From Blautia coccoides (GTDB lineage: Bacteria; Bacillota; Clostridia; Lachnospirales; Lachnospiraceae), in NCBI RefSeq assembly GCF_034355335.1, contig NZ_CP136422.1:4374501-4438500 (forward strand): a DNA stretch of 64,000 nt, given 5' to 3'. Made by a program: the position numbers and the translations under genes. The notes beneath the pieces were generated by a model. It saw only the letters and a program-made list of their open reading frames with translations, made no database searches and was not told the DNA's origin. The first letter of the stretch is position 1; each line of letters starts with the position of its first letter. Of this stretch, positions 16,080-49,432 are shown one piece after another.

Positions 16080-18287
16080 TTATAGTTTCAGTTTTGCGAA
16101 GGCGTCGGCAAAGGCATTATTCAGCGGTTCGGCGGCTTCTTTTTTTTGTTTGGTGAGATATTTCTGAACATCTTTTTTAGAGACGCCGGCACCTTCCTTT
16201 TCTCTGCGTGACTGGAAGGAGGAGAGCTTTTCCTTGTATCCGCAGGGGCAGATGAAGGTCTCTTCCTTGCCTTTGACATAAAGCTCCATGCGTTTATGGC
16301 ATTTTGGACAGCGGGCGTTGGTTGTGCGGGAAATAGTCTCACGGTGGCCGCATTCGCGGTCCTGGCAGACTAAAAGCCTGCTGTTTTTGCCGTTTACCGA
16401 GAGCATGCGCTTGCCGCAGACAGGACATTTTGTATTGGTCAGGTTGTCATGGCGGAAAGTGCCGTCCCCTGTTTTAATTTCCTGTATGATATCCTGGGTG
16501 TAATCTTTAATATCAGAGAGGAATGTATCTTTTTTCAGTCTGCCCTCTGCAATCTTTGAGAGCTTCATCTCCCAGTCAGCCGTCAACTCCGGTTTTTTCA
16601 AGTCCTCAGGCACCAACTCCAGAAGCTGCTTTGCCTTGGAGGTGATGTAGATATCTTTGCCTCGTTTTTCCATCAGAAAAGTGTTGAACAGTTTATCAAT
16701 GATATCTGCGCGGGTTGCAACCGTTCCCAGTCCGCCTGTCTCCCCCAGTGTTTTAGCCGCTTTGGCATCATGGCTCTCCATAAACTTCACAGGATTCTCC
16801 ATGGCTGAGAGCAGGGTCGCCTCGTTGAAATGAGCCGGAGGTTTTGTTTTTCCTGTGGTCAGCTCAGCTTTGGAAGCCGGGAATGTGTCGCCTTTTTTGA
16901 CGGTCGGAAGTGTCTGATCCTTCAGGGCCGGCTCCTGGCTGCCGCTGTATTCCTCCTCATCATCGTCGTCGGTCCAGCCGCTCTCATAGGCTTCTTTCCA
17001 GCCCGGACTTTTTACTATTTTGCCTTTTGCCAAGAATATTTCTCCTGCTGCCTGGGCTTTTATGGTTGTCTGCTCATATTCAAAAGGCGGCATGAGAACA
17101 CTCAAAAAGCGGCGCACCACCAGATCATAGATCTTGCGCTCCTCATTTGTCATATGGTCCAACTGGACAAACTGCTCGGTGGGGATGATCGCATGGTGAT
17201 CGCTCACCTTCTTGTCATCCACAAAGGATTTGCTTGCTTTTATGGGCTTCATGGAAAGGCTGCCGGCCAGCTTCCGATAGGGTCCTACCGCACAGGCCTT
17301 CAGTCTTTCTTTCAGGGTCCCCACCACATCGCTTCCGATGTAGCGGGAATCGGTCCTCGGATACGTCAAGACTTTGTGGTTTTCATACAGACGCTGCATA
17401 ATGTTCAGCGTCTCCTTTGCGGATAAACCATACTTTTTATTTGCATCTCTCTGAAGCTCTGTCAGATCATAAAGTCCTGGTGAGAAGGTCTTTTTTGCCG
17501 TCTTCTCCACGGATTCTATGGTAAGGGAGCCTGCTTTTACCTGATTTAACAGGCTCTCCATCTTCTCCTTCTGGAAGGAACGGCAGGAACCGCTCTTTTT
17601 GTCCTGCCAGGTAAAATGTATACCCTGGGACTGCACTGTCATGCCATAGTAATCAACCGGCTTGAAGTTTCTGATCTCCTCCTCCCGCTTGGCTATCATG
17701 GCCAGTGTGGGGGTCTGGACACGCCCGCAGGAGAGCTGAGCATTGTATTTGCAGGTGAGTGCCCTTGTGGCATTGATCCCCACCAGCCAGTCAGCTTCCG
17801 CACGGGATACAGCCGCTGCGTACAGGTTATTGTAGTCTCTTCCGTCTCTCAGATTTGCAAAGCCGTCACGGATGGCCTTGTCTGTGACAGAAGAGATCCA
17901 CAGACGTTTGATGGGCTTTCGGCAGTTTGCTTTTTCCAGTATCCATCTGGCTACAAGCTCTCCCTCCCGGCCGGCGTCAGTGGCAATGATGATTTCTCCC
18001 ACGTCGTTTCTGTAAAGCTGTGTTTTCACAGCATTGTACTGCTTGGCCGTCTGTTTGATCACCACCAGCTCCATTTTCTTGGGGATCATGGGAAGATGCT
18101 CCATTTTCCACTCTCTGTACTTCTTGTCATACCCTTCCGGGTCGTCTAACGTGACAAGATGGCCCAGTGCCCAGGATACAATGTATTTATCGCCCTCCAT
18201 GGCTCCGTTTAATTTTCTGCCGCATTTTAGCACCCTGGCAATATCCCGGGCAACGGACGGTTTTTCTGCTAAAACTAATGATTTCAT
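16080..18287 (-). CDS. topB: DNA topoisomerase III
   Basis: 735-residue type IA topoisomerase. It has an N-terminal TOPRIM domain (LVLAEKPSVARDIA; IATDAGREGELVA), the active-site tyrosine Y309 in VLTYPRTDSRYI, and the SCGRVQTPTLAM motif. The C-terminus carries two zinc-ribbon-like modules (CPVCGKRM ... CQDRECG and CPKCHKRM ... CPCGYK). It relaxes and decatenates DNA. The start is four bases after the aroF stop, so it should be on the aroF transcript and downstream of the aroF attenuator. The length is normal for chromosomal Firmicute TopB. Confidence 0.95.
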   Translation of the reverse strand: MKSLVLAEKPSVARDIARVLKCGRKLNGAMEGDKYIVSWALGHLVTLDDPEGYDKKYREWKMEHLPMIPKKMELVVIKQTAKQYNAVKTQLYRNDVGEIIIATDAGREGELVARWILEKANCRKPIKRLWISSVTDKAIRDGFANLRDGRDYNNLYAAAVSRAEADWLVGINATRALTCKYNAQLSCGRVQTPTLAMIAKREEEIRNFKPVDYYGMTVQSQGIHFTWQDKKSGSCRSFQKEKMESLLNQVKAGSLTIESVEKTAKKTFSPGLYDLTELQRDANKKYGLSAKETLNIMQRLYENHKVLTYPRTDSRYIGSDVVGTLKERLKACAVGPYRKLAGSLSMKPIKASKSFVDDKKVSDHHAIIPTEQFVQLDHMTNEERKIYDLVVRRFLSVLMPPFEYEQTTIKAQAAGEIFLAKGKIVKSPGWKEAYESGWTDDDDEEEYSGSQEPALKDQTLPTVKKGDTFPASKAELTTGKTKPPAHFNEATLLSAMENPVKFMESHDAKAAKTLGETGGLGTVATRADIIDKLFNTFLMEKRGKDIYITSKAKQLLELVPEDLKKPELTADWEMKLSKIAEGRLKKDTFLSDIKDYTQDIIQEIKTGDGTFRHDNLTNTKCPVCGKRMLSVNGKNSRLLVCQDRECGHRETISRTTNARCPKCHKRMELYVKGKEETFICPCGYKEKLSSFQSRREKEGAGVSKKDVQKYLTKQKKEAAEPLNNAFADAFAKLKL

Positions 18288-18291
18288 GAAA

Positions 18292-19302
18292 TTACATTAC
18301 CTTTCCGAAAAATTCTGTTGTCTTCTTCACCTTCTGCATTATATCGTCAAACATGGCCGGTGTCAAAGACTGCATGCCGTCACACAGGGCTTTTTCCGGA
18401 TCATTGTGCACTTCTATCATTACACCGTCAGCTCCCGCCGCAATTGCCGCCATAGTAAGAGGCTCCACCATGAAACGGATGCCCGCCGCGTGGCTTGGAT
18501 CAATGATGACAGGCAGATGTGTCTTCTTCTTCAGCATAGGGATGGCTGATATATCCAGTGTATTCCTCATGGAAGTCTCAAAGGTGCGGATACCTCTCTC
18601 GCAGAGGATCACTTGTTCATTTCCGCCTGCCATAATATATTCTGCACTCATAAGCAATTCATCCAGGGTGTTTGCCATGCCGCGTTTCAGAAGAATGGGT
18701 TTTTTCAGTTTTCCCAGCTCTTTCAAAAGCTCAAAGTTCTGCATATTTCTGGTACCAACCTGTATCACATCCACATCCTCAAAGAGGTCCAGATGCCCCA
18801 GACGCATAATCTCTGTCACAATAGGAAGACCGGTCTGCTTCTTGGCCTCCAGCAGCAATTTGAGTCCTTCATCTCCCAGCCCTTGGAAGGAGTAGGGGGA
18901 GGTTCTCGGCTTAAATGCCCCGCCTCTTAAAAGTCCGGCTCCGGAGTTCTTCACATCCTCAGCCACTTTGATCATCTGTTCCCTGGTCTCCACAGAGCAA
19001 GGCCCGGCGATCACCTGAAAATTTCCGCCGCCGATCTTTCTTTGGCACACATCGACCACAGTATCCTCCGGGTGCATACTTCTGTTTGCTTTCTTATACG
19101 GCTCCTTGATCCTTTTCACAGATTCCACTATTTCCAGTGCCTGAAACTGGTCCTCCTGCAGCTCTGTGGTATCTCCGATCAATCCGATCAGCATGGTATC
19201 CAGCCCCTGTGACATATGAAGTCTCAGTCCCCGCCGGATCAGGCTTTCCTTCAGCTCCTCCACCTTTTTTTCGTCCGCGTTCTTTTTCAGTACAATGATC
19301 AT
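18292..19302 (-). CDS. aroF: 3-deoxy-7-phosphoheptulonate (DAHP) synthase
   Basis: 336-residue type I DAHP synthase, first enzyme of the shikimate pathway (phosphoenolpyruvate + erythrose 4-phosphate). An N-terminal ACT/ferredoxin-like regulatory domain (about 1-70, MIIVLKKNADEKKVEEL) is fused to the barrel. Conserved segments are VIAGPCSVE, GGAFKPRTSPYSFQG, IQVGTRNMQN, LLKRG and IDPSHAAG. The extra N-terminal domain usually brings allosteric control by aromatic amino acids. A leader peptide and terminator upstream (19334-19508) add predicted attenuation control. topB follows four bases later. Confidence 0.96.
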   Translation of the reverse strand: MIIVLKKNADEKKVEELKESLIRRGLRLHMSQGLDTMLIGLIGDTTELQEDQFQALEIVESVKRIKEPYKKANRSMHPEDTVVDVCQRKIGGGNFQVIAGPCSVETREQMIKVAEDVKNSGAGLLRGGAFKPRTSPYSFQGLGDEGLKLLLEAKKQTGLPIVTEIMRLGHLDLFEDVDVIQVGTRNMQNFELLKELGKLKKPILLKRGMANTLDELLMSAEYIMAGGNEQVILCERGIRTFETSMRNTLDISAIPMLKKKTHLPVIIDPSHAAGIRFMVEPLTMAAIAAGADGVMIEVHNDPEKALCDGMQSLTPAMFDDIMQKVKKTTEFFGKVM

Positions 19303-19333: not shown

Positions 19334-19368
19334 AAAAAAAACCGATGTCTGCTACGCGCAAACACCGG
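19334..19368 (-). terminator. aroF leader attenuator (intrinsic terminator)
   Basis: Read leftward: an 11-bp stem (CCGGTGTTTGC / GCAGACATCGG, two G-U pairs), a 5-nt loop and eight T residues, ending about 30 bp before the aroF start codon. The 3' half of the loop and stem (CGTAGCA, 19356-19350) is the exact complement of TGCTACG (19430-19424) inside the leader-peptide gene, which gives a mutually exclusive antiterminator. Confidence 0.85.
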
Positions 19369-19403
19369 CCTATTTTCAGTATCTTTCAATTCTTTAAAAG
19401 ATC

Positions 19404-19508
19404 TTATGAAATAGATGTTTTACCGTAGCAAAAAGAACCCGCGTTATAAAAATAACCCAGAAAGCCAAAATAATATGCTTTTGTCCATACGTTCTTTTCT
19501 GCTGACAT
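19404..19508 (-). CDS. Aromatic-rich leader peptide for aroF attenuation
   Basis: A 34-codon ORF with a GAGG Shine-Dalgarno eight bases before its ATG. Ten of its residues are aromatic: W8, Y12, Y13, F14, F16, Y19, F20, Y21, F26 and Y28. The codons for Cys27-Tyr28 (TGCTAC) form the antiterminator strand. Predicted behaviour, as in known amino-acid operon attenuators: a ribosome stalled on aromatic codons leaves this strand free to pair with CGTAGCA and open the terminator; a fast ribosome covers it and the terminator forms. Too short for normal gene finding. Translation is inferred. Confidence 0.8.
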   Translation of the reverse strand: MSAEKNVWTKAYYFGFLGYFYNAGSFCYGKTSIS

Positions 19509-19540
19509 AATAAAACCTCAATCTCACTTTGATATTCCCA

Positions 19541-19569
19541 ATCATACTACCCTGCATCTGCTTTGTCAA
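19541..19569 (-). promoter_or_regulatory. Promoter of the aroF leader
   Basis: Read leftward: TTGACA (19569-19564), a 17-bp spacer, TATGAT (19546-19541). It lies 33 bp upstream of the leader-peptide ATG. Confidence 0.85.
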
Positions 19570-30316: not shown

Positions 30317-31129
30317 TCACTTCCCGCCTTTCTTCTGCAGTCCGTCACTTAACAGGGAAAATCCCAGTGCCAGGAGGATAACGGCTGCCCCGGGAAACAG
30401 GGCACACCAGGGAGCTGTTGCCAGGTACGCCTGGGACTCTGACAGCATTCTTCCCAGGCTGGCGTCCGGCGGCTGTACACCGATTCCCAGATAACTCATA
30501 CCTGCCTCAGCCAGAACTGCATTGTTAAACCCAATGGCAGCAGTCGCGAGAACTGTGGGAAGTGTATTTGGAAGAATATGCACAAAAATGATGCGCAGAT
30601 GGGATACGCCCATAAGCCTTGCACTTTTCACATAATCCATTTCCCTCTGGGAGATAAATTCACTTCTCGTCATTCTGGCAAAGCTGGGAATGAACACCAC
30701 TCCAAGGGCCAGGATCACATTGTATTTTCCGGGCCCTAAAATACTGATAAATACCAGGGCCAGCAAAATGCTCGGAAAAGAAACCACTGCATCATTAAAG
30801 CGCATAAGCACTTCATCCAGCCAGCCTCCGAAATATCCGGTAAAAGCGCCCACTAAAAGCCCGACTCCGCCGCCGATCAGGACCGTTGCCGCCCCCACAA
30901 AAAAAGTGGTTCCTGTGCCTTTCATGACCCGGCTCAAAATGTCCCGTCCAAACTGGTCACATCCAAACAGATGTGCCAGAGAAGGCGCTGCGAATTTCGC
31001 GCCGCCGCTCATGGCATCCGGATCATAGGGGGTATACAGCAGTCCGATCAGCAAAAATAGCAGCATACATCCTGCAAGGGAGGCACCGATGATCAAATTG
31101 CCCGACTTAATTTTTCTGTCTTTTCTCAT
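30317..31129 (-). CDS. oppC: Peptide-type ABC importer permease, OppC/DppC-like
   Basis: 270-residue permease with about six membrane helices. The periplasm-facing segment SLAHLFGCDQFGRDILSRV and the EAA coupling loop (RMTRSEFISQREMDYVKSAR ... GVSHLRIIFVHILPN) are typical of DppC/OppC/NikC. It lies 15 bp after oppB and one base before oppD. Confidence 0.9.
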   Translation of the reverse strand: MRKDRKIKSGNLIIGASLAGCMLLFLLIGLLYTPYDPDAMSGGAKFAAPSLAHLFGCDQFGRDILSRVMKGTGTTFFVGAATVLIGGGVGLLVGAFTGYFGGWLDEVLMRFNDAVVSFPSILLALVFISILGPGKYNVILALGVVFIPSFARMTRSEFISQREMDYVKSARLMGVSHLRIIFVHILPNTLPTVLATAAIGFNNAVLAEAGMSYLGIGVQPPDASLGRMLSESQAYLATAPWCALFPGAAVILLALGFSLLSDGLQKKGGK

Positions 31130-49152: not shown

Positions 49153-49432
49153 GATTCAGAGTGTTTCTGCAGACTGTCGGACAGATCACAGATATACTCT
49201 GTCATATAGACCAACGCGTAGACAGGAAGAGTAAAATGTCTATCCATGCAGAGAGGAATGCATTTGGTGTGAGCATTCTATGGGGAAGCATTTGAAGACC
49301 ACCCTGGAGCGGCTTTAATAAAGTCCGGCCGACACCGTTATCGTCTGAATGAGTGGTATTTACAAAAAGGGTGGAACCGCGGTATCTTGTTTATCGTCCC
49401 TGAACAGTCTAAGGATTGTTCAGGGTTTTTTT
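49153..49432 (+). promoter_or_regulatory. T-box leader sensing tRNA-Thr
   Basis: About 280-nt leader with the conserved T-box AGGGTGGAACCGCGG at 49368-49382, which pairs with the uncharged tRNA acceptor end. Stem I ends TTTGAAGACCACC; the specifier codon is read as ACC (49298-49300), threonine. The intrinsic terminator is CCCTGAAC/GTTCAGGG (49398-49425) followed by seven T. Uncharged tRNA-Thr should stabilise the antiterminator and switch thrS on. The 5' end is estimated from the promoter. Confidence 0.93.

Follow-up and report, generated by a model that had tools for sequence, protein, structure and literature searches.

A predicted leader-peptide attenuator with phenylalanine and tyrosine codons upstream of aroF in Blautia coccoides and other Clostridia

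Introduction

In attenuators of the Escherichia coli pheA and trp type, a codon-sensing leader open reading frame (ORF) is combined with alternative 1:2, 2:3 and 3:4 pairings and an intrinsic terminator. In Clostridia, amino-acid genes are usually described as controlled by the T-box, which senses uncharged tRNA. A leader controlled by TRAP carries about eleven closely spaced GAG/UAG repeats.

Leader-peptide attenuators are also described in Gram-positive bacteria. Excerpts of PMC9413887 and PMC2965389 predict attenuation by His leader peptides in Firmicutes, where histidine codons precede his operons, hisS and hisZ and the leaders replace T-boxes in some lineages. The ilv genes of Staphylococcus aureus, likewise a Firmicute, have a Leu-rich leader attenuator with branched-chain codons, supported by selected mutations, in which the predicted antiterminator sequesters the poly-U tail (PMC5794164, in excerpt). 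For aroF itself, passages of PMC8632094 present the uORFC-13-1 motif of Acholeplasma as a candidate Phe uORF attenuator, known from 24 representatives in Acholeplasma and unassigned environmental sequences only; they also note that attenuation of E. coli aroF was once hypothesized.

Here we analyse a stretch of 64 000 nucleotides of Blautia coccoides (the window; NZ_CP136422.1, positions 4 374 501 to 4 438 500), which carries a putative attenuator of aroF. This leader shares with the E. coli pheA and trp type the codon-sensing ORF, the alternative pairings and the intrinsic terminator; it differs in the gene, aroF, and in its antiterminator strand, which is part of the ORF as far as the stop codon and has pairing partners in both arms of the terminator. 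From the T-box (RF00230) it is distinguished by its translated ORF. With uORFC-13-1, compared by its description in PMC8632094 only, it has in common the gene, a possible promoter, a ribosome-binding site, a start codon, one or more Phe codons and an apparent intrinsic terminator. The description of that motif gives one or more Phe codons and a further base-paired element, whereas the Blautia leader has many Tyr and Phe codons, an explicit antiterminator and protector, and counterparts across the class of its host.

Among the matches listed in our literature search, which covered few subscription papers, none reported a leader peptide for aroF in a member of Clostridia; a prediction in Lopatovskaya et al. 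(2010), cited in PMC4833913, or Panina et al. (2003) is possible. The gene aroF is absent from the main text of the T-box survey PMC2494555, and excerpts of PMC7903761, on small proteins in a community containing Blautia producta, do not mention attenuation. The kind of device is known; judged from sequence, what appears new is its presence at aroF in Clostridia, where we found no report.

Organization of the aroF locus

The gene aroF (18292..19302, minus strand) encodes a DAHP synthase with a ferredoxin-like N-terminal domain (PF00793, PF18152), 94 per cent identical to AroF of Blautia parvula, and has the ribosome-binding site GGGAGGA just upstream. It is preceded on the minus strand by a sigma-70-type promoter, TTGACA-17-TATGAT (19541..19569), matching the consensus at 11 of 12 positions. 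Transcription presumably starts near 19534, which gives a leader RNA of about 200 nt. The leader ORF (19404..19508, minus strand) has 34 codons, MSAEKNVWTKAYYFGFLGYFYNAGSFCYGKTSIS, with one Trp, five Tyr and four Phe; its Shine–Dalgarno sequence GAGG (19516..19519, minus strand) lies 7 nt 5' of the ATG, and similar ORFs occur in relatives. An intrinsic terminator follows (19334..19371, minus strand), made of a hairpin (19371-19339) and eight T (19341-19334). The consensus promoter, the 34-codon ORF with ten aromatic residues and the T8 terminator of an earlier, sequence-only reading were thus re-derived on the minus strand. The hairpin that it gave as 11 bp is also borne out, with 14 pairs when weak ones are counted.

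Ten of the 34 leader codons are aromatic. Eight of them lie at positions 8–21, upstream of the antiterminator core described below, and the other two (26 and 28) lie inside it. A detector requiring a Shine–Dalgarno sequence and at least seven F/Y/W per 12 codons gave two matches on both strands of the whole window, one of them the leader ORF, and one match in 20 shuffles of the whole window. The sole other window ORF that passes the aromatic-density rule is MKCLCALMMQWFLFRAFCWPWYLSVF (30736-30816, minus strand). Taken by themselves, promoter-like matches in the region scanned are no more frequent than chance predicts (two found, 3.0 expected). Of 35 leaders, 32 have a promoter matching at 9 of 12 positions in the 120 nt that precede the ORF; among shuffles the figure is 228 of 700.

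The gene topB, encoding DNA topoisomerase III (16080..18287, minus strand), begins only 4 nt 3' of aroF, and the attenuator therefore probably governs it too; a topoisomerase III may in this way be controlled by an aromatic attenuator. A topB-like ORF follows aroF in eight of 23 related loci, and all eight belong to Blautia, which contributes 10 of the 23.

Alternative RNA structures and the proposed switch

Three segments of the minus-strand leader take part in two competing structures. Segment 1, the protector (GUUUUAUUAUGUCAGCAGAAAAGAAC, 19491..19516), holds the leader start codon and pairs with segment 2 in the minimum free energy (MFE) fold. Segment 2, the antiterminator strand (19407..19438), runs from codon 24 to the stop codon and comprises UUUGCUACG (19432-19424), AAACAU (19420-19415) and CUAUUUCA (19414-19407). 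Its partner, segment 3 (19348..19378), comprises UGAAAAUAG (19378-19370), GUGUUU in the 5' arm of the terminator (19365-19360) and CGUAGCAGA in its loop and 3' arm (19356-19348).

In the antiterminator, UUUGCUACG (codons 26–29) pairs with CGUAGCAGA, AAACAU (codons 30–32) pairs with GUGUUU, and the outer pairs join the last ORF codons to the bases just 5' of the terminator hairpin; the duplex energy is -22.8 kcal/mol. The perfect 7-bp pairing TGCTACG/CGTAGCA that the sequence-only reading had taken for the antiterminator is present (19430-19424 with 19356-19350) but forms only the core of this longer duplex, and the protector had gone unmentioned. Folded alone, the leader forms the terminator and a long hairpin between the ORF start region (19516-19491) and codons 24–31. 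The energy of this fold is -64.2 kcal/mol, against a shuffle mean of -39.1 (z = -5.9). Compared with dinucleotide shuffles of its own segment 2, the antiterminator pairing of the window leader has p = 0.040.

We consider it very probable that the element is a ribosome-mediated transcription attenuator of aroF, reading the supply of charged tRNA-Phe and tRNA-Tyr. When Phe and Tyr are plentiful, the ribosome would reach the end of the leader and cover codons 26–34, the terminator would form and aroF would be off. When either is short, the ribosome would stall at the aromatic codons 12–21; codons 26–34, left free, would pair with the emerging 5' arm, loop and 3' arm of the terminator, and RNA polymerase would read through into aroF and probably topB. 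If the leader is not translated, its start region would pair with codons 24–31, making termination the default. The stalling, the kinetics and the regulatory outcome are what we infer from the parts observed here and from the conservation and co-variation of both alternative pairings reported below.

Successive states of the switch were modelled by setting an assumed ribosome edge and folding the RNA 3' of it as the transcript 3' end was moved forward in steps. When the A site is placed at codon 12, 19 or 21, folding yields the antiterminator as MFE structure until the RNA 3' end reaches nucleotide 189 of 201, and up to that point segment 3 and the 5' arm of the terminator are both held by segment 2. 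A ribosome at codon 26 blocks the core pairing; only AAACAU:GUGUUU forms, until nucleotide 187, and the terminator is in place by 189. At the stop codon, the ribosome keeps both parts of the antiterminator from forming. The advancing ribosome thus masks the antiterminator in these folds, given the assumed footprint. Once the transcript is complete, the terminator exceeds the antiterminator in stability in all the ribosome states modelled, so antitermination would have to be kinetic, by order of folding.

Co-variation of the two pairings

Both pairings were analysed in two sets of leaders. The curated set was drawn from 154 upstream regions, 32 of them read beforehand, by judged aromatic content and with species repeats omitted; it has 54 leaders, 52 of them with a terminator. 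Those of L022 and L067, in which none was detected, were dropped, and the rest were reduced to 36 at 80 per cent identity. The class set was assembled by an automatic rule blind to pairing and contains 51 leaders, 49 with a terminator and 48 after reduction. L133 was too short and was left out.

For the antiterminator, the last 48 nt of each ORF plus 6 nt were paired with the leader's own terminator and with every other one, and the duplex energies were compared. In the curated set, the mean for own pairs is -22.1 against -17.8 (sd 0.53) for permuted pairs (z = -8.0; 0 of 20 000 permutations), and all 36 leaders pair better than row and column means predict. The class set gives z = -8.4 (0 of 20 000 permutations), with 42 of 48 better than expected.

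The protector was analysed in the same way, with the 54 nt before the aromatic block set against the same segment 2 region. Own pairs are again favoured over swapped ones, with z = -7.8 in the curated set (31 of 36 better than expected) and z = -8.2 in the class set (34 of 48), each with 0 of 20 000 permutations; five of the 36 curated and 14 of the 48 class leaders are not better than expected. Control segments gave z values of -1.30, 0.34 and 0.38 in the curated set and 0.09, -1.97 and -1.00 in the class set, the value of -1.97 coming from the region 5' of the ORF against the terminator (530 of 20 000 permutations).

Taken one by one, half of the leaders (18 of 36) pair better than dinucleotide shuffles of their segment 2 at p < 0.05 and half do not; the evidence for pairing is therefore collective. 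Compensatory variants of the core are seen directly in TGCTACG/CGTAGCA (window), TGCTATG/CATAGCA (L019), TGCTACA/TGTAGCA (L029), TGCTGTG/CACAGCA (L003), TGCTGTA/TACAGCA (L013) and TGCTGCA/TGCAGCA. This comparison of 7-mers takes the best TGC/GCA pair per leader, which biases its permutation result upward, and it serves as illustration only.

Distribution of the leader among aroF loci

Among aroF loci from assembled genome contigs, an ORF with a Shine–Dalgarno sequence and at least 7 of 12 F/Y/W codons lies within 420 nt upstream in 27 of 65, and the rest of the same 358 kb around these loci contains four such ORFs on both strands. Of the first locus set, 80 of 149 were kept, 45 of the 80 figuring in the first scan and 67 in the later one. 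When 20 genomes of the genus were searched with the leader peptide, nine matches had E of at most 1.1e-4, at coordinates fitting sites just upstream of aroF; three further matches, with E above 0.1, are not on the contig that carries aroF in the genome concerned. The aroF leaders diverge in both length and sequence.

The family sample consists of 150 genomes, 87 with an AroF match, from which 69 upstream regions were scanned. Fifteen of them pass at a threshold of at least 6 of 12 and 14 at one of at least 7 of 12, against 0 of 69 on the reverse strand and 8 and 0, respectively, of 1380 shuffles. All 15 leaders belong to the 23 loci with AroF identity of at least 62 per cent, eight of which lack a leader; there are none among the 46 loci below.

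The class set was taken from the best-matching part of the AroF list from 246 class genomes, some giving two loci; 89 upstream regions were taken and 88 were long enough. Among these best-matching loci, 51 of 88 pass at 6 of 12 or more and 45 of 88 at 7 of 12 or more, while the reverse strand gives 0 of 88 and shuffles give 16 and 0, respectively, of 1760. The other 37 loci lack a leader even at the lower threshold. The rate is similar along the list, with 14 leaders at the higher threshold in the best 29 loci and 31 in the next 59. A terminator lies between leader and aroF for 49 of the 51 class leaders, against 102 of 510 shuffles.

The same rule, applied to 1500 nt upstream of 30 pheA, 30 trpE/pabB and 30 hisG domain matches (the loci with the highest scores in 59 class genomes, measured from the domain and not from the gene start), gave 0 of 90. 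Two of the hisG loci, L349 and L365, have short ORFs with five His codons (NKKHHHHHSD and KMHHHHHSKG) about 1.3–1.45 kb upstream of the domain match. These ORFs, upstream of his genes, resemble the published Firmicute His leader peptides.

In a tree of AroF, made by a quick method with SH-aLRT support only from 97 chosen rows (one of 98 was dropped for its odd length), the clade holding the window (SH-aLRT 98) has the leader in 28 of 31 rows. The leader label changes 23 times over the tree, against a shuffled mean of 31.6; gain and loss are indistinguishable. A similar ORF with a GTG start, RYFTSFGWRYFFSVGFFYRGKQ, lies upstream of aroF in L068, a metagenome-assembled genome of the Sporomusaceae, which we take to be Negativicutes and so outside the class of the host.

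A leader-peptide attenuator of aroF, as the sequence-only reading had named it, is thus supported by the conservation of the ORF and by the co-variation of both alternative pairings. The check proposed with it, for the short ORF and the pairing in relatives, was carried out; both are conserved and the attenuator was not refuted.

Nature of the signal

The composition of the leaders points to the amino acids read. The curated leaders (n = 36) contain 178 F, 165 Y and 10 W among 1268 residues, and the class leaders (n = 51) 277 F, 238 Y and 21 W among 1790. AroF proteins themselves contain 3.0 per cent F, 1.4 per cent Y and 0.36 per cent W. The leaders were picked on F, Y and W jointly, so this choice does not by itself produce the surplus of F and Y relative to W. 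By this measure the conserved signal is Phe and Tyr, with Trp barely enriched. As a sign that the ORF is coding, in leaders of near relatives 71 single-base codon differences are synonymous against 45.2 expected, in pairs that are not independent.

The mix of codons in the window had suggested a sensor of all three aromatic amino acids. One Trp codon does lie at position 8, upstream of segment 2, where it could add Trp sensing in this species, and W recurs in 10 of the 36 curated and 19 of the 51 class leaders. The remaining 26 and 32, however, have none; W makes up about 1 per cent of leader residues, against F and Y at about 13–16 per cent each, and in the same genome a T-box on trpE already serves as a Trp sensor. 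The claim for all three is not supported in that form, and we regard a Trp-inclusive sensor as unlikely.

In the Eubacterium leaders L059 (FFSSFSFFSFSFF) and L067 (FFQGFGFFSFSFF), the aromatic block is almost only Phe. The gene 3' of aroF in L059 is presumably pheA, as recognized by eye; those in L032 and L034, whose leaders mix Y and F, look by eye like tyrA. The choice of leader codons may follow the branch served by the operon.

The nascent peptide could itself be the sensor, as a TnaC-like arrest peptide binding the free amino acid, in place of tRNA supply read at the codons. Many leaders indeed share a C-terminal pattern, GYFCCKK or GSFCC. This pattern overlaps the antiterminator strand, however, and in L019, L037 and L104 the strand (TTTTGCT..) is kept in another frame, reading FFAM, FFAV and LFAA in place of FCC/FCY, and still pairs, which argues that it is conserved as RNA and not as peptide. 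The aromatic block, moreover, varies between F and Y and in spacing. We therefore hold a peptide sensor to be very improbable.

Slightly less probable still is a functional role for the ORF product as a small hydrophobic peptide, with the terminator as part of the ORF's own transcript, which the Shine–Dalgarno sequence and promoter would allow. Such a peptide would leave unexplained why the ORF precedes aroF but none of the three other gene families analysed, and why its last codons co-vary with the terminator. A chance ORF of aromatic appearance in AT-rich DNA, beside an ordinary terminator, could draw on the chance level of promoter-like sites alone but is refuted by conservation in the class (45 of 88 loci against 0 of 1760 shuffles), by the shuffles and by the co-variation of own versus swapped pairs.

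T-boxes and other regulatory elements

A cmscan of the window at gathering scores gave no match to a T-box or other Rfam element at the aroF leader. The sole T-box (RF00230) over the Rfam cut-off in the window lies at 49210-49404 on the plus strand, with the specifier ACC read by eye, before a gene that by eye looks like thrS. TRAP control was considered and rejected: the 201-nt leader has only four GAG/UAG, at 0-based positions 9, 15, 162 and 180.

The T-box model has 16 matches in the same genome, 10 of them over the cut-off. One lies directly upstream of trpE, with the aligned specifier UGG read by eye. A match under the cut-off (82.1 bits) has the specifier UAC, also read by eye, and the gene 3' of it is one that we recognize as tyrS. 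The pheA gene of this genome has neither a T-box nor an aromatic leader.

T-boxes lie directly upstream of aroF in three of the 40 leaderless family loci scanned (L129, L134 and L141) and in one of the 37 leaderless class loci (L275). The one match in 20 further loci, in L036, is more than 1 kb upstream of aroF and probably belongs to a preceding gene; the scans did not take in L164–L170. With a T-box or a leader upstream of aroF in different loci, the device that senses tRNA at this gene differs between related genomes. Many aroF genes without a leader show no T-box either. The view that T-box control is usual for such genes fits the T-box on trpE and those on a few leaderless aroF, but attenuation by leader peptides has been published for Firmicute his and ilv genes and, as a candidate, for aroF of Acholeplasma.

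Implications

We lean towards the reading that control of the entry enzyme of the shikimate pathway by a Phe/Tyr leader-peptide attenuator is ancient and common across Clostridia, with repeated loss and exchange with T-boxes. It would have escaped report because so short an ORF is not annotated and the RNA diverges too fast for covariance models.

The Blautia genome has a T-box on trpE and, by our assignment, tyrS, yet the enzyme feeding the whole aromatic pathway has a translated leader. Such a leader can combine the signals of Phe and Tyr within a single element, something that the one specifier codon of a T-box cannot do. The natural compensatory variants found by co-variation provide many ready test cases, and the presence of either a T-box or a leader at aroF within one family makes the exchange of sensors directly open to study. 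The same putative switch is carried by many related bacteria, at about half of the 88 class aroF loci, drawn from the AroF proteins most like that of the window.
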